Assembly (NCBI RefSeq): GCF_000186245.1
Contig: NC_014935.1
Location: 868,001-932,000 of the forward strand
DNA: 64,000 bases
Reading direction: 5' to 3'
From: Nitratifractor salsuginis DSM 16511
GTDB taxonomy: Bacteria; Campylobacterota; Campylobacteria; Campylobacterales; Sulfurovaceae
Shown here: positions 592-55,886 of the stretch, piece after piece
How the letters are laid out: each line of letters opens with the position of its first letter
How positions within the stretch are numbered: position 1 is the first letter of the stretch
Program-made: the position numbers and the translations under genes
The notes under the pieces: generated by a model
What the model saw: the letters and a program-made list of their open reading frames with translations, nothing else
Told to the model about the DNA's origin: nothing
Databases searched by the model: none

Positions 592-640
592 TAACCGAGT
601 AACGGAGTAATGAGTAACTAGTAACCGAATAATCGGGGAA
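589..640. repeat. degenerate GAGTAACC-type 7-8 bp tandem repeat
   Basis: About six imperfect units of a TAACCGAG/TAATGAG motif lie directly downstream of the amidase stop codon, mixing 7- and 8-base steps. The same family recurs near 8.2, 14.3, 15.95, 18.5 and 32.8 kb. Confidence 0.7.
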
Positions 641-7339: not shown

Positions 7340-8002
7340 ATGAACGTAGAAGAGTTTATGGCGTTACAGGATGAGGTTTTTATCCGCTACGACGGAGTGG
7401 AACTGCCGGGACGTCTGGCGGTGCCCGAGGGAGCCGAAGGGATCGTGCTTTTCGCCCATGGAAGCGGCAGCAGCCGCCTCAGCCGGCGCAACAATTATGT
7501 CGCCTCGGTGCTCCACGAAGCGGGGATCGCTACTTTGCTTTTCGATCTGCTGATGGAGCCGGAGGCCCTGGATCGGCGCAATGTCTTCGATATCGACCTG
7601 CTGGCATCACGACTGCTGCTGGCGACCCATTGGACGAGCCTCCAACCTGCACTGAAGGATATGAATGCTGGCTATTTCGGGGCCAGCACCGGCTCGGCGG
7701 CAGCGCTCAAGGCTTCGGTCCTTTCCCCGGTACCCATCCGCGCCATCGTCTCCCGGGGCGGCCGCCCCGATATGGCGGCGGACGTGCTGGAGCGTGTCAC
7801 CGCCCCGACCCTCATCATCGTAGGCGGTAACGACTACGGCGTCATCGAACTCAATGAAGAGGCCTACCGCCGACTGCGCTGCGAAAAGGCCTTCGAGATC
7901 GTCCCCGGCGCCACCCACCTCTTCGAAGAGCCCGGCACCCTGGAGCGGGTGGCGGAGCTGGCAAGGGATTGGTTTGTGAGACATTTGAGAGCTGAGAGCT
8001 GA
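7340..8002 (+). CDS. alpha/beta hydrolase, dienelactone-hydrolase-like
   Basis: Small cytoplasmic hydrolase of 220 residues. The oxyanion-side motif LFAHGSGSSRLS precedes the nucleophile elbow GASTGS with Ser116. An Asp (GGNDYGVIE) and a late His (PGATHLFEEPG) complete a plausible triad. Close relatives often occur alone or fused to phosphoribosyltransferases; the substrate is unknown. It is third in the transport operon, 18 bases after the MgtC-like gene, with GGGGGC upstream as a weak ribosome site. Its last codons (LRAES) are already part of the GAGAGCT repeat run that follows. Confidence 0.75.
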   Translation: MNVEEFMALQDEVFIRYDGVELPGRLAVPEGAEGIVLFAHGSGSSRLSRRNNYVASVLHEAGIATLLFDLLMEPEALDRRNVFDIDLLASRLLLATHWTSLQPALKDMNAGYFGASTGSAAALKASVLSPVPIRAIVSRGGRPDMAADVLERVTAPTLIIVGGNDYGVIELNEEAYRRLRCEKAFEIVPGATHLFEEPGTLERVAELARDWFVRHLRAES

Positions 8003-8232
8003 GCGTTGAGAGTTGAGAGTTGAGGGTTGGTCGTTGGTTGTTGGTCGTTGGTTGTTGGTTGTTGGTCGTTGGTCGTTGGTCGTTGGTCGTTGGTCGTTGG
8101 TCGTTGGTCGTTGGTCGTTGGTCGTTGGGGCAGCGGAGAAAAATTACTAGTTACTAGTTTCTAGTTCTTCGGTTACTCATTACTCGGTTACTCATTACTC
8201 GGTTGCTCGGTTGCTCGGTTACTCGGTTGCTC
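7986..8232. repeat. composite run of 7-8 bp tandem repeats
   Basis: Three repeat families sit end to end between convergent genes: TGAGAGC/TGAGCGT units (7986-8030), about 15 TTGGTCG/TTGGTTG units of exactly 7 bases (8025-8127), then ATTACTAG and GGTTACTC/GGTTGCTC units of 7-8 bases (8140-8232). The run starts inside the last codons of the hydrolase and ends at the sirtuin stop codon. No gene is seen in it. Confidence 0.95.
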
Positions 8233-8980
8233 ATTCCAGATCCATTCCCAGCCTCTTCGCCAGCTCTTTGGCCGCTTCGGTCGCTTTCGCCCGGAGGAAG
8301 ATATCGGTGCGGTGTGCGGTGTAGGCGGAGGGCTCGACGTTGATTTCGATTACTTTGGCTTTTTTGCCTTCGTAGGGGAGCATGGAGGCAGGCATCACTT
8401 CTCCGGTGGTGCCGATGATGAGCAATAGGTCCGCCCTTTCGCAAAGTGCCAGGGAGCGCTGGTAGGCTTCGGGCGGGATCGATTCGCCGAAGAAGATGAA
8501 ATCAGGCTTGAGCAGCCCGCCGCACTTTTTGCAAAGCGGCGGCAGATCGTTCAGGTCGTGTTCGGTAAAGGGGGTACGGTCACCGCATTGGGTGCAGAGC
8601 AGCTTCTGGGCGGTGCCGTGAAATTCGATGACGTTTCGGCTGCCAGCCTCCTGGTGGAGGTTGTCGATGTTTTGGGTGATGACTCCCTGCAGCTTCCCCC
8701 GTCGCTCTAGCTCGGCCAGGAAGCGGTGGGCGGCGTTGGGGCGGGCGTTGGCCCCCATATAGTCGTAGAAGATTTCCCGGATCGCTTCCCAGGACTCTTT
8801 GGGGTGCTCATAGAAGTAGCCCAGGTCGAGGATCTTGGGATCGTAGCGGCTCCAGAGCCCCGTGGGCCCCCGGAAGGTGGGGATCCCGCTCTCCACGGAG
8901 ATCCCGGCTCCGGTGAAGGCGACGGGACGCGCGGCCTCCTCGATCCAGCGTGCGGCGGTATCGTAATCGTTTCGTGTCAT
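8231..8980 (-). CDS. cobB: NAD-dependent protein deacylase, sirtuin
   Basis: Class III Sir2 enzyme (249 residues) that removes acyl groups from lysines using NAD+. Motifs are FTGAGISVESGIPTFRG (NAD site), TQNIDNLH, EFHGT with the catalytic His, a structural zinc site CTQC...CKKC, FFGESIP and IGTTGEVMPAS. Length is normal for bacterial CobB. It is directly upstream-linked to murJ: murJ ends one base before this start, so both are probably on one leftward transcript. The stop codon abuts the repeat run at 7986-8232. A second, different sirtuin is encoded at 27086-27907. Confidence 0.9.
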   Translation of the reverse strand: MTRNDYDTAARWIEEAARPVAFTGAGISVESGIPTFRGPTGLWSRYDPKILDLGYFYEHPKESWEAIREIFYDYMGANARPNAAHRFLAELERRGKLQGVITQNIDNLHQEAGSRNVIEFHGTAQKLLCTQCGDRTPFTEHDLNDLPPLCKKCGGLLKPDFIFFGESIPPEAYQRSLALCERADLLLIIGTTGEVMPASMLPYEGKKAKVIEINVEPSAYTAHRTDIFLRAKATEAAKELAKRLGMDLE

Positions 8981-13462: not shown

Positions 13463-13500
13463 CCAATTCAAAATCCAAAATCTATAATCCAAAATTCCCT
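13463..13500. repeat. CAAAATC 7-bp tandem repeat
   Basis: Four units (CAAAATC, CAAAATC, TATAATC, CAAAATT) between the permease and the FTR-rhodanese gene. It is the same family as inside dsbD (15.83 kb) and at the start of truD (25.93 kb). Confidence 0.75.
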
Positions 13501-14283: not shown

Positions 14284-14440
14284 ATGAAGAATGAGCAACC
14301 GAGTAACCGAGTAATGAGTAACCGAATGAGTGAGCTGTCGATCATTATGGAGTCATAACACTTAGCACGTAACACTTAACACAATTCTGGCTTGCGACTT
14401 GAGGGGCGAAGCCCCGTGCCTGCGACTTGCGACTCTATAA
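14284..14440. repeat. composite short repeats with a small hairpin
   Basis: Between two leftward genes: GAGTAACC-type units (14290-14330), TAACACTTA units (14355-14380), and CTTGCGA units split by a perfect hairpin GGGGC-GAA-GCCCC at 14403-14415. No coding sequence is seen. Confidence 0.8.
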
Positions 14441-14445
14441 AAAAG

Positions 14446-16437
14446 TCAGTGGATCTCTTTAAGCCGCATGACGAAGTTTCTGGGAGGGACGAAACCGACC
14501 ATAAATTTGTCGGGGAGAGGGCGGCCTTTGGAGTCGAAGACGAGGATGTTGGGGGCGCCGAAGAGTTTGTAGTGTTTGAGGATCTCCTGCTCTTTGGGGG
14601 TGTTGTCGGTGATGTCGATCTGGAGGAATTTGAAGCGTTTGAGGGCTTCGCGGACTTTGGGATCGGGGAAGGTGATGTGCTCCAGTTCGCTGCAGGCGGC
14701 GCAGTTTTCCTTCCCGATATCCACGATGACGGGTTTGCCCTCTTTGGTGGCCTGGGCGATCTCCCGCTGGAGCCGCTCCAGGGTGTAGCCCCGGCGCCGG
14801 GCCATCGGAACGAGGGGCGAGTCACTTTCGGCGCTGGCGGCGACGGTTTTGGCAGTGAAGGGCTCCAGGGGGTTCAGGAGCGATTGGGCCCCGGCCAGCG
14901 TTCCGACGAAGAGAGTGGAGCCGTAGAGGAAAAGGACAAGGGCCAAAAGCTGGATCAGCTTGGCGGCTCCCTTGTAGTGATCGCCGCTATCGAAGACCCG
15001 CAGATAGAGGGCGCTGCCCAGCAGGAGTAGGGAAGCCAGGAACATAAAGAGTCCGGGGCTCAGAACCCCCCGGAGCACATAGAGGGCCATCGCCAGCATC
15101 ACGACGCCGAAGATCTGGCTGACCCGGTTCATCCAGCCGCCCGGTTTGGGGATGAGCTTGTCGGCTCCCAGGCCCATAAGCAGCAGCGGCATTCCGGCGC
15201 CGATCCCCATCACGAAGAGGCTGAGGCCTCCCAGCACGGCATCGCCGGTCATCGAGATGAAGATCACCGCCCCGCTGATGACGGGCGCGGTGCAGGTGCC
15301 CACGATCAGGGCAGAGAGGGCGCCCATAATTGCGGTGCCCAGCAGCCCCTTGCCCTGGGCTTCGTCGCTGGCTTTGGTGAGTTTGCTCTGCCAGGAGGCG
15401 GGCAGGCCCAGCTCGAAGTAGCCAAAAAGCGAGAAGGCCAGGGCCACGAAGAGCCCCGCCATCGGGATCATCACCCAGGGGTTATTCAGATGGGCTTGGA
15501 TATCGAAGCCCAGCAGTCCGGCGACGATTCCGATGAGGGCGTAGGTGGCTGCCATGGAGACCACATAGACCAGCGAAATGATAAAGGCGGTGGAACGGCT
15601 CACCCCTCCCTCTTTGCCCGCCTGTTTGACCAGGATCGACGAGAGGATGGGGATCATCGGCAGGATGCAAGGAGTCAGAGCCAACAGCAGCCCGGCGATG
15701 AAAAAGAGCAGCAGGACAAAAAGGACCCCCTCATCGGCCAATGCCCGGGCGATCTTGGCGCTGTTGCCCTCTTTGGCCAGAGTGGAGATTTTGGCGAAGA
15801 AACCAGGGTGTTCAGCTTTCGCTGAAGATTTTGGATTTTGGATTTTGGATTTTGGATGGGTTTGGTCGTTGGTCGTTGGTCGTTGAGAGCTGAGCGTTGA
15901 GCGTTGAGCGTTGAGCGTTGAGGATTTGTTTTCTTCGGTTGCTCGGTTGCTCGGTTGCTCGGTTGCTCGGTTACTGGATTCCTCATTTGAAGGCTCCGCC
16001 TTCAGGTCGAAGGTGTATTTCTGGGGGGCGTAGCAGATGCCGGCGTCGCTGCAGCCGCTCAGGTCGATCTCCAGGGTGAAAGGGCCTTCGATGCCTTTCT
16101 CCCTTAGCTTCTGGAGGGGGATGTCGATGTTGAGGGTACCGTAATAGACCTTCTGGCCTTCGTAATCTACGGGTTCGGGTTTTTTGACATCGAGCTCGAA
16201 ACTTTTGGGCTTGATGATTTTGAAATGGAGGTCTTTGGCGTAGATGTGGATCTTTTCTCCCAGTTTGACGGTGGTTTTGATCTTGTCCCCCCGGATCTTG
16301 GCCTGGACTTTGAAAGCCTGATCGGGGGTGAGGAACTTGCGCTGGAGATGAAATCCGCCGCTGCTTCCAAAGCCGGCCTGGAGCCAGAGCATCGGAGTGA
16401 GCAGCAATCCCGCGATTATAATGAGACGTCGTAACAT
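14446..16437 (-). CDS. dsbD: thiol:disulfide interchange protein DsbD
   Basis: Carries electrons from cytoplasmic thioredoxin to periplasmic Dsb and cytochrome-maturation partners. The 663-residue protein has a signal peptide (1-21), a periplasmic N-terminal domain with redox Cys129 and Cys135 (SGCSDAGICYAP), a central eight-helix region (LTPCILPMIPILSSIL, GTCTAPVISGAV), and a C-terminal thioredoxin domain with CAAC at 579-582. Between the first domain and the membrane part, residues ~150-207 are encoded by four families of 7-8 bp repeats, giving a low-complexity S/T/N/Q/R linker. The frame is intact. Confidence 0.92.
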   Translation of the reverse strand: MLRRLIIIAGLLLTPMLWLQAGFGSSGGFHLQRKFLTPDQAFKVQAKIRGDKIKTTVKLGEKIHIYAKDLHFKIIKPKSFELDVKKPEPVDYEGQKVYYGTLNIDIPLQKLREKGIEGPFTLEIDLSGCSDAGICYAPQKYTFDLKAEPSNEESSNRATEQPSNRATEENKSSTLNAQRSTLSSQRPTTNDQTHPKSKIQNPKSSAKAEHPGFFAKISTLAKEGNSAKIARALADEGVLFVLLLFFIAGLLLALTPCILPMIPILSSILVKQAGKEGGVSRSTAFIISLVYVVSMAATYALIGIVAGLLGFDIQAHLNNPWVMIPMAGLFVALAFSLFGYFELGLPASWQSKLTKASDEAQGKGLLGTAIMGALSALIVGTCTAPVISGAVIFISMTGDAVLGGLSLFVMGIGAGMPLLLMGLGADKLIPKPGGWMNRVSQIFGVVMLAMALYVLRGVLSPGLFMFLASLLLLGSALYLRVFDSGDHYKGAAKLIQLLALVLFLYGSTLFVGTLAGAQSLLNPLEPFTAKTVAASAESDSPLVPMARRRGYTLERLQREIAQATKEGKPVIVDIGKENCAACSELEHITFPDPKVREALKRFKFLQIDITDNTPKEQEILKHYKLFGAPNILVFDSKGRPLPDKFMVGFVPPRNFVMRLKEIH
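15813..16003. repeat. four repeat families inside dsbD, bordered by hairpins
   Basis: On the plus strand: hairpin TTCAGC-TTTC-GCTGAA (15813-15828), four TTTTGGA units, three TTGGTCG units, about six TTGAGCG-like units, four to five CGGTTGCT units, then hairpin GAAGGC-TCC-GCCTTC (15989-16003). The 7-base and 8-base periods are clean. The whole block is read through by dsbD. Confidence 0.95.
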
Positions 16438-16564: not shown

Positions 16565-18541
16565 ATGAGTAACCGTTTGATCCACGAGCAGTCCCCCTAC
16601 CTGCGGCAGCACGCCGAGAATCCTGTGGATTGGTATCCCTGGGGGGATGAGGCCTTTGAAAAAGCAAGGCGGGAGGATAAGCCGATCTTCCTCTCCATCG
16701 GTTACAGTGCCTGCCACTGGTGTCACGTGATGGAGCGGGAGAGTTTCGAAAATCCCGAGCTGGCAAAGCTGCTCAATGAACATTTTGTCTCCATCAAAGT
16801 GGACCGGGAGGAACGCCCCGATATCGACAAGCACTTTCAGGAGGTCTTCGTGACGATGAACGGCAGGGCCGGGGGGTGGCCGCTGAGTATTTTTATGACG
16901 CCGGAGAAAATTCCTTTCTACTCGGCGACCTATATTCCCCCCGAGCCCCGCTACGGGATGATGGGATTTGGGGAGCTGCTGGAGACCATCGCCGCCAAAT
17001 ATGCCAAGGATCGCGAAACCCTCATCGAGAAGGGGCGGGAAGTCCTGGAGTTCATCAAACCCAAGGATAAGATCCAGGCGACCCGGATCGACGCTCAGCT
17101 CGAGTCGATCGTGCTCAAGCAGATCAAACAGGTCTATGAACCGAACTTCGGTGGCTTCGGCGGTGCGCCAAAATTCCCCCACGCTTCGACCCTGCGCCTG
17201 GCCCTGGCGATGCTGCAGCTGCGCGATGATAAGGAGCTGGAGCGTATCGTGCGTCATACCCTGGAGAGTATGGCGTTGGGCGGGCTCTACGACCTGGTCG
17301 ACGGAGGTTTTTGCCGCTACAGCACCGACGAGAAGTGGCTGGTGCCCCATTTCGAGAAGATGACTTATGACAATGCTCTGCTGGCGGAGGTCTATGCTAA
17401 AGCGGCCGCTGTCTTTGAAAACGAGGATTATTGGCAAATCGCCCGGGAGACTTTGGACTTTATGCTGGAGCGGATGATGGAGGGGAATCTCTTTTTCTCC
17501 GCCAGCGATGCCGACAGTGAGGGAGAGGAGGGCGAATACTTCGTCTACGACTATGCCGAAGCGGTGGAAGCCTTTGCCCGGGCGGGGATCACGGAGCCGG
17601 AGCTTGCGGCCCGGAAGTTGGGGATGAGCCCGGAGGGGAATTTCGAAGGGAAAAACATCCCGCGTTTAAGCGCTTTTCAAGAGCGTAACGATCCTCAGCT
17701 CAACAAGGCCCTGAAGGTTTTGAAAGAGCTCAGAGCGAAGCGTTGCTATCCCTTTATCGACCGCAAGATTCAGAGCTCCTGGAACGCGATGATGATCCGC
17801 GCGCTTTTCGTGGCGGGACGTCGGGAGCCGCGTTACCTGGAGCAGGCGAAACGCAGCCTAGAGGCGTTGGAGGGGAAAATGACTGCAGGCGTGTGGATCT
17901 TCCACTCGGCCCTTATCGATATGGAGCCGAAGATCGAGGGCTTTTTGGAAGATTACGCCTGGTGGATCAGCGCCCTGCTGGAGGGGTACCGCAGCACCCT
18001 GGATGAGCGTTATCTGATCCGAGCTACGGAGCTGGGCAACGAGGCGATCCGCCGCTTCTACGACCGGGGGCGCTGGCGGATCGACGACGGGGAGTTCCGG
18101 GAGGTCTGTGAGGATACCGATACGGGCTACCCCTCGGCCCTGGCGGTGATGACGGAGGCCCTGCTGGGGATTCGGGCCCTCATCGACCCGGTCTACGACA
18201 AATTCATCGCCCGGACCCTGGAGGTCCACTCCTATCAGCTGATGCGCCAACCCATCGCCCGGCCTACGCTGGCAGAGGCGGCTATCCGCCATTTGCGCGA
18301 CGACTTGATCGTCAAAGGGGCCCTAGAGCGGCTCCGCCCCCATATCCCCGAGATCGACGGTATCGGATATCCCTGGTTCTGGCTCCGAACCGCCTTTGAG
18401 AGCGGCTATATGCTCTGCGGAACCCGGAACTGCTTTGCCAATGAGGAGAGCTTCGAAATGATCCGCAAAGCGGTGAGCTACTGGGTGAATGAGGAATTAG
18501 GAATGAGGAATGAGGAACCGAATAACCGAATAACAGAGTAA
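16565..18541 (+). CDS. DUF255 thioredoxin-domain protein (YyaL/SPATA20 family)
   Basis: Protein of 658 residues. The first ~170 residues form a thioredoxin-like domain with the conserved start ([20 protein letters not shown]), W-Y-P-W, and the CHWC motif in [15 protein letters not shown]. The remainder is an (alpha/alpha)6-barrel like N-acylglucosamine 2-epimerases ([32 protein letters not shown]). Function is unproven in bacteria. The C-terminal ~20 residues after YWV are encoded by ATGAGGA and CCGAATAA repeats, so the native C-terminus was probably replaced by repeat sequence. Confidence 0.88.
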
Positions 18542-18624
18542 CCGAGTAACCGAGTAACCGAGCAACCGAGCAACCGAGCAACCGAATTCTCAACGCTCAA
18601 CGCTTAGCTCTCAGTTCTCAGCTC
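18497..18624. repeat. composite 7-8 bp tandem repeats between convergent genes
   Basis: Order: ATGAGGA units (18500-18515), CCGAATAA/CCGAGTAA/CCGAGCAA units of 8 bases (about nine, 18517-18588), then CAACGCT and AGCTCTC units to 18624, ending two bases before the truA stop codon. The first part overlaps the 3' end of the DUF255 gene. Confidence 0.93.
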
Positions 18625-25917: not shown

Positions 25918-27033
25918 GAACAATCCAAAATCCAAAATCCAAAATCCAAAATCTCCAATCCCTGGCTCTTCCCCACCGCCCAGAAAAACGACTTCGTTTT
26001 CACCCCCTCTCCCAGGGATTTCACCGTCAAAGAAATTCCCCTTTATGAGTTTTCAGGCGAAGGGGAGCACCTGATCGTGCAGGTGCGCAAGAAGGGGTTC
26101 TCGACCTGGGAGTTGACCGACCGGCTGAGCAACCGTCTGGGTATTCCCAGGCGGCAGATCGGCTATGCGGGGCTCAAGGACAAGCACGCCTTGACCACTC
26201 AGTATCTCTCTTTACCCGCCGCTTGTGAAAAGTCGTTGGAAGGAATGGAACTGGAAGGGGTGAAAATCCTCGACGTGACCCGTCACGACAACAAGCTCAG
26301 GGTCGGGCATCTCAAAGGCAACCGCTTCCGCCTGCGTTTCAAAAAGGTTTTGGGGGTGCAGAAGGAGAAGATCGACTCCGTGCTCGATTGGATCGAGCGC
26401 TGGGGGATGCCCAACTACTTCGGCCTCCAGCGATTCGGCACCGAAGGGAACAATTGGCAGGAGGGCCTGGCGCTGGTAGAGGGACGCTTGAAGATCCGCG
26501 AGCGCAAAATGCGGGAGTTCCTCATCAGTGCCTATCAGAGCAGGCTCTTCAACGATTGGTTGAGCCGGCGTATCGGGCTGAGCCGGTTGCTGGAAGAGTT
26601 TGGCGAACGGGAGGTAGAAACGATCGAGAAACTTCCCGCCGGATCGCTCTCAGGGGTCAAAAAACAGGAGCACTTTTTCAAAATCCTCTCGGGGGATCTG
26701 ATGATGCACTATCCCTATGGCAGGCTCTTCCCGGCCGAGGATCTCGACTCCGAAGCGGCAAAGTTCGCCGCCAAAGACCGGGCTCCCACCGGTCTGCTGC
26801 CCGGTCGGAAGGTCAAGCGGGCCGAAGGGACTGCCCGGTTGATCGAAGAGCTTTATGACGGCAAGAGGATTTCGGAGCAGGGGAGCCGCCGATATGCGTG
26901 GGTCTTTCCATCGGAGATCCACCGCCGCTATGTGCCGGAGAAGGCGCATTATGAGCTGAGCTTCACACTGCCGAAAGGGAGCTATGCGACGGTGCTGGTG
27001 GCGATGCTGAAAGGGAAATGGAATGAGGAGTGA
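25864..27033 (+). CDS. truD: tRNA pseudouridine(13) synthase, start fused to toxin remnant
   Basis: Makes pseudouridine-13 in tRNA-Glu. The 389-residue reading contains the catalytic Asp in GYAGLKDKHALTTQYLS, NYFGLQRFGTEGNNWQEG and SGEGEHLIVQVRKKG. TruD sequence proper begins only around residue 37 (LFPTAQKNDF). Residues 1-18 look like a RelE toxin start and ~19-35 are coded by CCAAAATC repeats. No ATG occurs in between; a TTG near 25908 is the only other start before the TruD body. Translation probably begins at the old toxin ATG, coupled to the antitoxin. Confidence 0.9.
   Translation: MNYESTSIPKAQRKALNKEQSKIQNPKSKISNPWLFPTAQKNDFVFTPSPRDFTVKEIPLYEFSGEGEHLIVQVRKKGFSTWELTDRLSNRLGIPRRQIGYAGLKDKHALTTQYLSLPAACEKSLEGMELEGVKILDVTRHDNKLRVGHLKGNRFRLRFKKVLGVQKEKIDSVLDWIERWGMPNYFGLQRFGTEGNNWQEGLALVEGRLKIRERKMREFLISAYQSRLFNDWLSRRIGLSRLLEEFGEREVETIEKLPAGSLSGVKKQEHFFKILSGDLMMHYPYGRLFPAEDLDSEAAKFAAKDRAPTGLLPGRKVKRAEGTARLIEELYDGKRISEQGSRRYAWVFPSEIHRRYVPEKAHYELSFTLPKGSYATVLVAMLKGKWNEE
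25918..25960. repeat. CCAAAAT 7-bp tandem repeat at the truD 5' end
   Basis: Four near-perfect AATCCAA/CCAAAATC units with a final degenerate TCCAATCC, in frame with TruD (encoding KIQNPKSK). It is the inverse strand of the family inside dsbD. Confidence 0.88.
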
Positions 27034-32785: not shown

Positions 32786-32826
32786 GAACCATTCGGTTAT
32801 TCATTACCCGGTTATTCGGTTAAGCC
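32786..32826. repeat. degenerate GGTTATTC 7-8 bp repeat
   Basis: Four imperfect units (CGGTTATTC, ATTACC, CGGTTATTC, GGTT) just before the haem operon; a relic of the GGTTACTC family seen at 8.2 and 15.95 kb. Confidence 0.6.
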
Positions 32827-40205: not shown

Positions 40206-40317
40206 CTTTCTGTGTTGGTCACTGGTCATTAGCCACTGGCGATTGGGTAAAGTGTCGGTTCAGGCCCCAATGACCAATGACCAATGACCAATGCCCGAAA
40301 GAGCGGAAGCTCTTTCG
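40206..40317. repeat. CCAATGA 7-bp repeats plus perfect hairpin
   Basis: Degenerate TTGGTCA/CATTAGCCACTGG units precede four CCAATGA units (40266-40293). Then a perfect 9-bp hairpin CGAAAGAGC-GGAA-GCTCTTTCG (40296-40317) directly abuts the aspS stop codon. There is no T-run on the transcribed strand. Confidence 0.85.
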
Positions 40318-54416: not shown

Positions 54417-54959
54417 TCAGAGCGTCGCTTTGCGGAAGAAATCCCGCACATACTCGTAACCGCTGTAGAGGGTCAGAGCCACGGCGATCCAGAGCAGGAA
54501 GGTGCCGCCGGGCCACTCCATAAGCAGAAAGCCGATGGCGAACATTTGGCTGACGGTTTTGACCTTGCCCATCCAGCTGGCGGAGATGTCGATGCCGTGG
54601 CTGACGGCCGAGACCCGCAGTCCGGTGATGAAGAGTTCCCGGGTGAGGATCAGGTAGATGGCCCAGGGATCGGCCCGGCCCAGGAGCATCAGCCCCAAAA
54701 AGCCCGCCAGAGTCAGCATCTTGTCGGCTAAGGGATCGAGGATGGCGCCCAGGACGGTCACCTGATCGAAGGTTCGCGCAATGTAGCCGTCGAAAAAGTC
54801 GGTGGCGCTGGCCAGGACGAAGAGAAAGGCCGCCGCATAATCGAGCCAACTGTAGTGGATTCCGGCAAAGATAGGCAGGTCCCGGTTGACCAGCAGAAGA
54901 TACATCAGTGGCGCGCAGAGCAGGCGGATGAAGGCGAGGAGATTGGGGATGTTATACAA
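54417..54959 (-). CDS. pgsA: CDP-diacylglycerol--glycerol-3-phosphate phosphatidyltransferase
   Basis: Makes phosphatidylglycerophosphate at the inner membrane. The 180-residue protein has the CDP-alcohol phosphotransferase motif in SATDFFDGYIARTF...LDPLADK and four hydrophobic helices. The start chosen is TTG at 54959 (reading MYNIPNLLAFIRLL), five bases after AAGGAG; the frame stays open to a TTG at 54989 that has no ribosome site. The chosen start and ribosome site lie inside a perfect 17-bp hairpin. Confidence 0.9.
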   Translation of the reverse strand: MYNIPNLLAFIRLLCAPLMYLLLVNRDLPIFAGIHYSWLDYAAAFLFVLASATDFFDGYIARTFDQVTVLGAILDPLADKMLTLAGFLGLMLLGRADPWAIYLILTRELFITGLRVSAVSHGIDISASWMGKVKTVSQMFAIGFLLMEWPGGTFLLWIAVALTLYSGYEYVRDFFRKATL

Positions 54960-54987
54960 AACGACTCCTTGAGTCGTTTTGTATAAC
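54951..54987 (-). promoter_or_regulatory. perfect 17-bp hairpin over the pgsA start
   Basis: Bases 54951-54967 and 54971-54987 are exact inverted copies separated by three bases. In the pgsA mRNA the loop plus first stem bases form AAGGAG and the UUG start lies in the descending arm, so translation initiation would be masked when the hairpin forms. Confidence 0.75.
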
Positions 54988-54989
54988 AA

Positions 54990-55092
54990 ATGAGGAATGA
55001 GGAATGAGGAATGAGGAATTTTTTGTAGTGGATATTGTTGCTTCGTTTTTTATGCTATACATCTTCCATCTCTCCATCATCAATCCTCCATC
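54990..55092. repeat. ATGAGGA tandem repeats and degenerate TCCATC repeats
   Basis: Four perfect ATGAGGA units (54990-55017) touch the outer end of the pgsA hairpin. After ~45 bases of AT-rich spacer come degenerate CCATCTC/TCCATCA/TCAATCC units (55065-55092) that reach a 22-bp palindrome. Confidence 0.85.
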
Positions 55093-55114
55093 CGTTCCGC
55101 TGATCAGCGGAACG
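55093..55114. repeat. 22-bp perfect palindrome at the FabL-like gene stop
   Basis: CGTTCCGCTGA followed by its exact reverse complement, with the stop codon of the reductase gene in the centre (55104-55106). It could act as a 3' stabilising hairpin or be part of the repeat locus. Confidence 0.75.
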
Positions 55115-55886
55115 TCGTTCCTCCGTCGACCACAAGGGTGTGGCCGGTGATCCAGCTTGCGTCGTCGCTGCAGAGGAAGAGAATGGCTCCGGCGAGGTCC
55201 TCGGGGGTGCCCATTCGATTGAGAGCGGAGCGTTTGATGGTTTCGGCTTTGACCTCTTCGTAGTTGGTAAAGGCCCGCAGAGCGTCGGTCTCGATGGGGC
55301 CGCCGCTGACGGCGTTGACCCGGATGTTCCATTCACCCAGCTCCACTGCCGCATAGCGGGCCATCGCTTCCACGGCGGCTTTGTTGGTGCCGTGGCCGGC
55401 GTAGTTTTCGATGTAGATACGGTTGCCGGTGGAGCTCAGCGTCACGATGGCGCCGCCGCCCACTTTTTGCATCCGCTTGGCCGCTTCCTGACTCCCGGCG
55501 ACGAAGGCGCCCACGGTGGCCATATAGATATTGGCCAGGCCCTTTTTGGGGCGCAGTTTCATAAATTTCCCGTAACCGCCTACGACAGGTCGGCCGTAGA
55601 TCATAGCGTTGGAGACGAAGAAATCCACCCGGTCAAAATCCTCGTCGATCGCTTCAAACAGGGGTTTGAACTGGTCGGTATCGAGGATATCCAGCGCATA
55701 GGCGCGGGCTTTGATGCCGTAGGTCTCCTCCAGCTCTTTGGCGAAGTTCTCCGCCGCTTCCTTGTTGGAATTGTAGGTCAGGGCGACATTGACGCCGTTT
55801 TGGGCGAATTTCTCGGCGGTGGCTTTGCCGATGCCTTTGGTGGCCCCGGTAATCACCAGGGTCTTGCCTTTCATAGTTTCATACAT
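55104..55886 (-). CDS. fabL: enoyl-ACP reductase-like SDR (FabL type)
   Basis: A 260-residue short-chain dehydrogenase: NADP motif TGATKGIGKATAEKFAQNG, FFVSNAMIYGRPVVGGYGKF, active-site pattern YAGHGTNKAAVEAM (Tyr-x6-Lys) and VDGGTTFR at the end. SNAM and the Tyr-x6-Lys spacing point to FabL-type enoyl reductases of fatty acid synthesis rather than FabG. It follows dapA by one base, an order also known from Campylobacter. The exact substrate is inference. Confidence 0.8.
   Translation of the reverse strand: MYETMKGKTLVITGATKGIGKATAEKFAQNGVNVALTYNSNKEAAENFAKELEETYGIKARAYALDILDTDQFKPLFEAIDEDFDRVDFFVSNAMIYGRPVVGGYGKFMKLRPKKGLANIYMATVGAFVAGSQEAAKRMQKVGGGAIVTLSSTGNRIYIENYAGHGTNKAAVEAMARYAAVELGEWNIRVNAVSGGPIETDALRAFTNYEEVKAETIKRSALNRMGTPEDLAGAILFLCSDDASWITGHTLVVDGGTTFR

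Follow-up and report, generated by a model that had tools for sequence, protein, structure and literature searches.

Polar heptamer arrays, mostly of four units, at gene edges in Nitratifractor salsuginis and related genomes

Introduction

STRR heptamers, short tandem repeats with a period of seven, have reportedly been described in cyanobacteria by Mazel and others. That heptamers are in excess in bacterial spacers has been on record from 2007 at the latest (Mrazek, cited in PMC4679880 and PMC4692102), with no accepted cause so far. The GGGAATC and GGGGA(C/T)T heptamers of Xanthomonas and Nostoc PCC 7120 are intergenic and mostly four units long, and Rehm et al. (2015, PMC4692102) pointed out that a G-quadruplex needs at least four tracts. 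The TAACTGA direct repeats of the Beggiatoaceae form one intergenic family, which in the Guaymas genome lies mostly in the forward sense just upstream of start codons (MacGregor 2015, PMC4679880). GGGAATC in Xanthomonas and Nostoc (PMC4692102) is the closest published case to the arrays described here.

We compare these systems with a locus of N. salsuginis that lies in the window, a 64-kb stretch (C1:868001-932000) of the closed genome G000 (2,101,285 bp). According to a sequence-only reading of the window, no such system is known from Campylobacterota, and our search of the open-licence literature yielded none for the phylum and no earlier description of such arrays from Nitratifractor or Sulfurovum.

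Materials and methods

The G000 sample (464 kb) consisted of the window and, at even spacing, 20 further stretches of 20 kb each. The genus sample held 13 genomes, including G000, G008 (about 80% identical to G000) and G011. G109 and G115 belong to the same family as G000 and to another genus, and their polarity was counted on contigs of 3 kb or more. The cyanobacterial comparison set comprised 60 loci chosen for carrying CCAATGA arrays. Genes were called with a home-made codon-usage ORF picker, which covered 0.795 of the G000 sample; PMC3156401 gives the N. salsuginis genome as 91.19% coding, so some of the labels 'far' and 'intergenic' are too generous. An assembly artefact is an unlikely source of the arrays, since independent drafts are in agreement with the finished genome.

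Results

The focal locus is a string of four arrays between two convergent genes, a hydrolase-like ORF and SIR2. Its features, in window positions, are:

7340..8002, plus strand: ORF of 220 aa with weak Hydrolase_4 similarity (22.7 bits, under the 27-bit cut-off)
7985..8029, plus strand: array TTGAGAG x6.4 (TRF), C-poor strand on plus
8026..8128, plus strand: array GTTGGTC x14.7 (TRF), the longest 7-mer array in the sample
8144..8166, no strand: array TTACTAG x3.3 (TRF), skew 0
8169..8232, minus strand: 8-mer array TCGGTTAC x8.2 (TRF), adjoining the SIR2 stop codon, skew slightly negative
8231..8980, minus strand: Sir2-family gene (PF02146, 165.7 bits)

The four 7-8-bp arrays adjoin one another across 7985-8232, and the locus of nearly 250 bases singled out by the sequence-only reading is real. 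The TGA stop of the ORF (8000-8002) lies inside the first array, TTGAGAG, and the SIR2 stop overlaps the last, TCGGTTAC x8.2. At 103 nt and 14.7 units, the GTTGGTC (equivalent to TTGGTCG) array is an outlier in length. No array-abutting palindrome is detectable at 7985-8232. The orthologous hydrolase-SIR2 spacer of G002, G007 and G008 holds other heptamers between the same two genes. The spacers of G002 and G008 (L041, L042) also carry palindromes of the CGTCATTCCGGGCTCGACCCGGAATCC type, which resemble the CGTC-tagged REPs described in PMC3733652.

Further arrays and palindromes of the window are:

592..632, plus strand: 8-mer array TAACCGAG x5.4, beginning directly past the upstream gene
13465..13495, minus strand: 7-mer array AATCCAA x4.4 (TRF)
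14293..14325, plus strand: 8-mer array GAGTAACC x4.2 (TRF)
14356..14382, minus strand: 7-mer array TAACACT x3.9 (TRF)
15811..15826, no strand: palindrome TTCAGC-TTTC-GCTGAA, ending exactly where the array block 15827..15972 begins
15827..15972, plus strand: four adjacent arrays, GATTTTG x4.4, TTGGTCG x3.4, CGTTGAG x6 and TCGGTTGC x4.8
18487..18517, plus strand: 7-mer array GAATGAG x4.4, encoding C-terminal residues of gene 16565-18541
18512..18585, minus strand: 8-mer array GAGTAACC x9.2 (TRF)
25922..25953, minus strand: 7-mer array AATCCAA x4.6, at the 5' edge of the TruD gene
32791..32822, no strand: weak 8-mer array ATTCGGTT x4.1, skew 0
40267..40293, minus strand: 7-mer array CCAATGA x3.9, with a hairpin of stem 9 at most 2 nt from the array start
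54950..54988, no strand: palindrome of stem 18 and loop 3, ending exactly at array 54989..55019
54989..55019, plus strand: 7-mer array AATGAGG x4.4 (TRF)
55060..55092, minus strand: 7-mer array CATCTTC x4.6 (TRF)
55093..55114, no strand: palindrome CGTTCCGCT-GATC-AGCGGAACG, abutting array 55060..55092

The block at 15827-15972 is translated in frame within the minus-strand gene 14446-16392, where it forms the linker (residues about 141-189) that joins DsbD_N to DsbD_TM. No empty site for this insert turned up among the loci compared. The palindrome at 54950..54988 overlaps the start region of gene 54417-54959, and that at 55093..55114 sits at the edge of gene 55104-55886.

Period 7 stands out genome-wide. 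The 464 kb contained 45 perfect lag-7 runs of at least 12, and neither order-1 nor order-5 Markov sequence contained any; in the genome lag 8 gave 5 and each of lags 2-6 and 9-13 gave 0-2. At the loose cut-off of 30, TRF returned 49 rows for the window, many of which had other periods than 7 or 8. Raising the cut-off to 36 left 19 arrays of 7- or 8-mers without overlap, spread over about a dozen places, which bears out the earlier impression of at least ten loci, often with several families side by side; the arrays are mostly intergenic. The whole 464-kb sample held 106 non-overlapping 7- or 8-mer arrays, 12 in called genes, 4 at stretch edges and the remainder intergenic by the home-made caller. 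Lack of the same families elsewhere in the genome would have refuted the sequence-only reading, but a scan found that they recur: the focal DNA has 52 matches in its own genome (the focal copy counted), TTGGTCGx3 has 12+20 overlapping matches and GAATGAGx3 has 26+44. About 40 heptamer families occur in G000 and its relatives.

The lengths of the 7-mer arrays centre on four units. Arrays of 29-33 nt, or about four units, made up 51/91 in G000, 50/88 in G008 and 16/26 in G011, and this mode holds in G000 and its relatives whatever the heptamer; arrays of 2.4 and 3.4 units form the low end of the distribution. By a second detector, lag-7 arrays above 34 nt were 5/86 in G000 and 4/87 in G008, and 107/237 in the 60 CCAATGA-selected cyanobacterial loci. 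In unbiased stretches of two cyanobacteria, array lengths were broad, reaching 168 and 273 nt. Outside the genus, the 29-33 nt class held 8/27 arrays in G109 and 3/10 in G115, and both genomes also carry longer arrays, so the four-unit cap is not family-wide.

The arrays are also polar with respect to genes. We scored arrays lying no more than 60 nt from a gene edge by the strand richer in G than in C. This C-poor strand ran 5' to 3' from the gene into the spacer ('inward') in 126 arrays and in reverse ('outward') in 8 (G000 67/4, G008 59/4). Of 203 arrays, the count passes over 22 inside genes, 6 at stretch edges, 37 labelled far and 4 of zero skew. The rule held in all four gene-pair orientation classes (61/2, 7/0, 24/3 and 34/3), in further genomes of the genus (G006 5/0, G010 5/0 and G011 9/1, where 17/29 arrays are far) and elsewhere in the family (G109 13/3, G115 3/0). 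Inward polarity recurs in Cyanobacteria (Westiellopsis 17/4 and ESFC-1 11/4 in unbiased stretches; 28 in and 8 out in total), and small samples of Bacteroidota and Planctomycetota show it too; a fallback caller gave 5/0 for Mucilaginibacter and 3/0 for Zavarzinella. Array-free spacer edges show a slight skew in the opposite direction. Arrays overlapped the gene end at 25/93 of 3' edges and at 1/45 of 5' edges, which indicates that selection shapes array position. The left and right heptamers of a spacer were no more alike than shuffled ones (p 0.66, 22 pairs; 0.92, 18 pairs), as expected if the two ends were extended independently; this rules out a MITE with terminal inverted repeats.

Length and polarity both bear on G-quadruplex selection, in which four units would supply the minimum of four G-tracts, as Rehm et al. 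note for GGGAATC (PMC4692102). Four GGG runs occur in none of the arrays here, and where GG is lacking altogether the polarity is still 19 in and 2 out in one count and 17/3 in the other, with 11/22 and 18/30 of these arrays at 29-33 nt. Two-tetrad structures could still form in the GG class. Since both the length mode and the polarity hold without GG, G-quadruplexes are ruled out as a general cause, and we regard the whole idea as extremely improbable. C-poor repeats growing out 3' on both ends also resemble telomere polarity, which would fit a telomerase-like or other reverse-transcriptase addition to DNA ends. RVT_1, however, was found in 2/13 genus genomes (G003, G009) and is absent from the array-richest, G000, G008 and G011. 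Such an enzyme is very improbable, although an unrelated polymerase could still act in this way.

Many arrays are flanked by hairpins. Palindromes were sought at 220 oriented arrays of G000, G008 and G011 (12 of 232 were set aside for zero skew or for lying close to the end of a stretch) as stems of at least 6 within 45 nt on the gene side, with shuffles that preserve single-base composition only. Gene-side hairpins accompanied 66/220 arrays, against 8.6 in shuffles, and at 27/220 the stem ended exactly at the array's first base, where 0.6 were expected and the maximum in 20 shuffles was 2. Outside the GTTGC group these stems were locus-specific, 58/59 being distinct. On the inner side 76/220 arrays had a hairpin, which in 41 cases began 6-9 nt past the array. 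G109 shows the same abutment (distance 0 in 5/22, expected 0.2), and the cyanobacterial loci show no excess of gene-side palindromes at distance 0 (1/223, expected 0.7).

At the L014/L075 locus, the gene's own terminal codons make up one arm of the palindrome. The palindromes there are perfect yet different in two species; read by eye, the coding arm has three substitutions, and in each genome the opposite arm has changed to fit. From this comparison, the palindromes appear to be remade at this locus.

Other dispersed repeats were met in the same genomes. An element of about 138 bp at L082:10028-10166 of G008 has many copies in G001, G002, G007 and G010; G007 lacks it at the L082 site, where the flanking matches overlap by 5 bp, which suggests a MITE with a 5-bp target duplication. 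Seven Y1_Tnp (PF01797) copies of equal score, in 143-aa frames, lie between 844811 and 1664761 of C1 in G000 and look like a recently multiplied IS200-like element. In G002 and G001, the orthologues of L071:6600, L071:8484 and L082:3935 contain a recurring insert that starts at about 'ggtttcattcgatggcgacaaaggag' and ends at about 'gctatcgagtgaaacc', a dispersed repeat with inverted ends and variable length.

Spacers with arrays change quickly. We compared G008 with G007 and G002, whose flanking genes are about 93% identical, counting 60 nt of gene in each identity. The median spacer identity was 0.705 / 0.68 with arrays (n=13, 18) and 0.857 / 0.889 without (n=17, 19), and spacer length differed by more than 20 nt in 19/31 cases with arrays versus 7/36 without. 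Array position is kept across species while array sequence changes. Presence is patchy as well: GAATGAGx3 occurs in 30/175 family genomes and 5/11 genera, with 74 matches in G115, 65 in G109 and 70 in G000, none in many congeners of G000, and none in 8 genomes of other phyla.

Where their flanks persist, arrays mostly keep their length. Array length was the same in 49/59 comparisons where 12 nt persist on each side (counted in both directions, hence non-independent), and changes of +/-7 were seen in 4/59. The frequent unit-wise length change of phase-variation microsatellites is thus not found between species, and the arrays differ from ordinary microsatellites of variable length. At L075:19165 and L071:11054 the orthologous sites differ, with one unit against 4.4 and direction polarised informally only, and at L068:854 a native 'cagcactt' is present at about 1, 3 and 9 units in three genomes. 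GARTGAG arrays were pure at the variable base in 13/16 and 11/13 cases. Homogenised units and growth from a local seed indicate that part of the process is local amplification.

These results are partly those expected of replication slippage, in which the heptamer would reflect how many nucleotides of DNA the polymerase holds (Mrazek, as reported in PMC4679880 and PMC4692102), arrays would change stepwise and selection would confine them outside genes. The dominance of period 7, the homogenised units, the seed expansion at L068:854, the occasional +/-7 changes and the 2.4- and 3.4-unit arrays all suit it. Slippage does not, however, predict a strict polarity on both sides of the spacer in all gene orientations. 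It is also at odds with the abrupt upper limit of about 32 nt in G000 and G008 and with the many retained arrays whose length did not change. We consider slippage rather unlikely as the explanation.

Pure local amplification is not enough either, given that identical imperfect arrays are present at several loci and that the shuffle-controlled in-register excess is 0.0116 vs 0.0006 and 0.006 vs 0.0004. This small excess and the recurring imperfect arrays point to some whole-array copying. Dispersed modules of array, linker and hairpin could be copied from one spacer to another, whether through ectopic template switching, gene conversion or a transposase, which would account for the shared heptamers, for recurring orders such as CCAATGA - ttgccgaaggcaac - ACTTGCG, and for the arrays beside hairpins in Nitratifractor and G109. 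But the arrays share no one conserved element, those on the left and right of a spacer are unrelated, the gene-side palindromes are locus-specific and the copying signal is small. The two RVT_1-bearing genomes are both array-poor in the sampled stretches, and Y1_Tnp is absent from array-bearing G001, G002, G007 and G010 (three of them incomplete), which speaks against the Y1 transposase as the cause. Copied modules are therefore distinctly unlikely. The sequence-only reading had proposed active spreading; fast turnover and some whole-array copying fit that proposal, whereas homogenised units and growth from local seeds do not.

Selection might instead keep the length and polarity of the arrays as protein-bound sites, Rho utilisation (rut) sites or insulators. 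Transcription outward from the spacer would then yield the C-rich, G-poor strand, terminator-like hairpins lie inside, positions persist while sequences change, and Rho is present in G000, G008 and G011 (689-695 bits). The polarity nevertheless does not depend on whether the gene edge is 5' or 3' or on the gene-pair class, spacers are replaced fast and wholesale, and presence across the family is patchy. Rho/rut is ruled out as a general cause because cyanobacteria keep the polarity with 0/5 genomes reaching the Rho cut-off. Selected sites of any of these kinds are quite improbable.

Discussion

The rules described above hold in dozens of families that cannot form three-tetrad structures, and the polarity recurs in other phyla, so sequence is probably not the cause. 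We tentatively propose, as a possibility we hold at less than even confidence, that the arrays are scars of a sequence-independent fault of DNA synthesis at gene edges. A 3' end facing into the spacer, either a nascent strand from either side or one of the two ends of a break, would stall at a central hairpin or break near it. It would then fold back and copy its own strand, giving the palindrome, and would next, starting from a seed on the spot or close by, repeat a 7-nt step some four times, giving the array, after which synthesis or joining would resume. Selection would remove the events that damage genes, leaving arrays gathered in spacers, at 3' gene ends and, once, in a protein linker.

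Faults of 3'-end synthesis fit the polarity, the independent ends, the abutting palindromes, the birth of arrays as whole blocks and their later stability. We infer the stall or break, the fold-back and the reiteration, and the model does not itself yield the 7-nt step or the limit of four. Several observations stand against it: a palindrome is detectable directly beside only 27/220 arrays and none at the focal locus, the TTGGTCG array there runs to 14.7 units, whole-array copying leaves a small signal, arrays overlap 3' but hardly 5' gene ends, and cyanobacterial arrays have the polarity without abutting palindromes.

It is tempting to speculate, though we find it doubtful, that at least four phyla share an end- or stall-processing activity that adds a C-poor 7-mer to spacer-facing 3' ends, with two independent ends per event. 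In the relatives of Nitratifractor this would run for about four rounds after fold-back copying, and spacers would be strings of scars. If so, spacers are rewritten faster than genes diverge. The abutting palindromes offer a concrete handle on fold-back synthesis, and close genomes could reveal single events.

How do these arrays compare with known systems? Like cyanobacterial STRRs they are tandem with period 7, dispersed, intergenic and of many families side by side, and the sampled cyanobacterial arrays share their inward polarity. The resemblance to STRRs suggested by the sequence-only reading therefore stands for period and polarity. It fails for the four-unit cap (107/237 cyanobacterial arrays above 34 nt, against 5/86 in G000), for the abutting palindromes (1/223 against 27/220) and for a shared lexicon, as 5 families are shared with cyanobacteria (of 39 and 65) where chance gives 3.0, with a maximum of 8. 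CCAATGA itself occurs in at least 5 other phyla among the matches listed (80 loci; phyla from record titles).

The repeats of Rehm et al. (PMC4692102) follow the same rules in several respects: the 5' end of the G-rich strand lies at the ORF in either orientation, inverted pairs are convergent, and sister species have the same genes with repeats of other length and sequence. They are one G4-forming family, whereas about 40 families occur here, none with four GGG runs; here, abutting palindromes and hairpins at 6-9 nt occur as well. TAACTGA resembles our arrays as an intergenic heptamer, patchy across phyla and mixed with other heptamers in some genomes. It differs in being one family and in lying mostly in the forward sense ahead of start codons (Guaymas genome), where the 5' gene edges here have the C-rich sense.

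REP/BIME elements (GTAG- and CGTC-tagged, both types in Sulfurovum according to PMC3733652) are likewise short spacer palindromes. They form families, in contrast to the locus-specific gene-side palindromes here, whose stems are diverse, and Y1_Tnp occurs in 7/13 genomes without clear relation to arrays. The arrays do match the LSSR description of Mrazek, with units of 5-11 nt and lengths beyond chance. Intergenic heptamer repeats are thus already known; what is new here is arrays that are multi-family, length-capped and palindrome-abutting.
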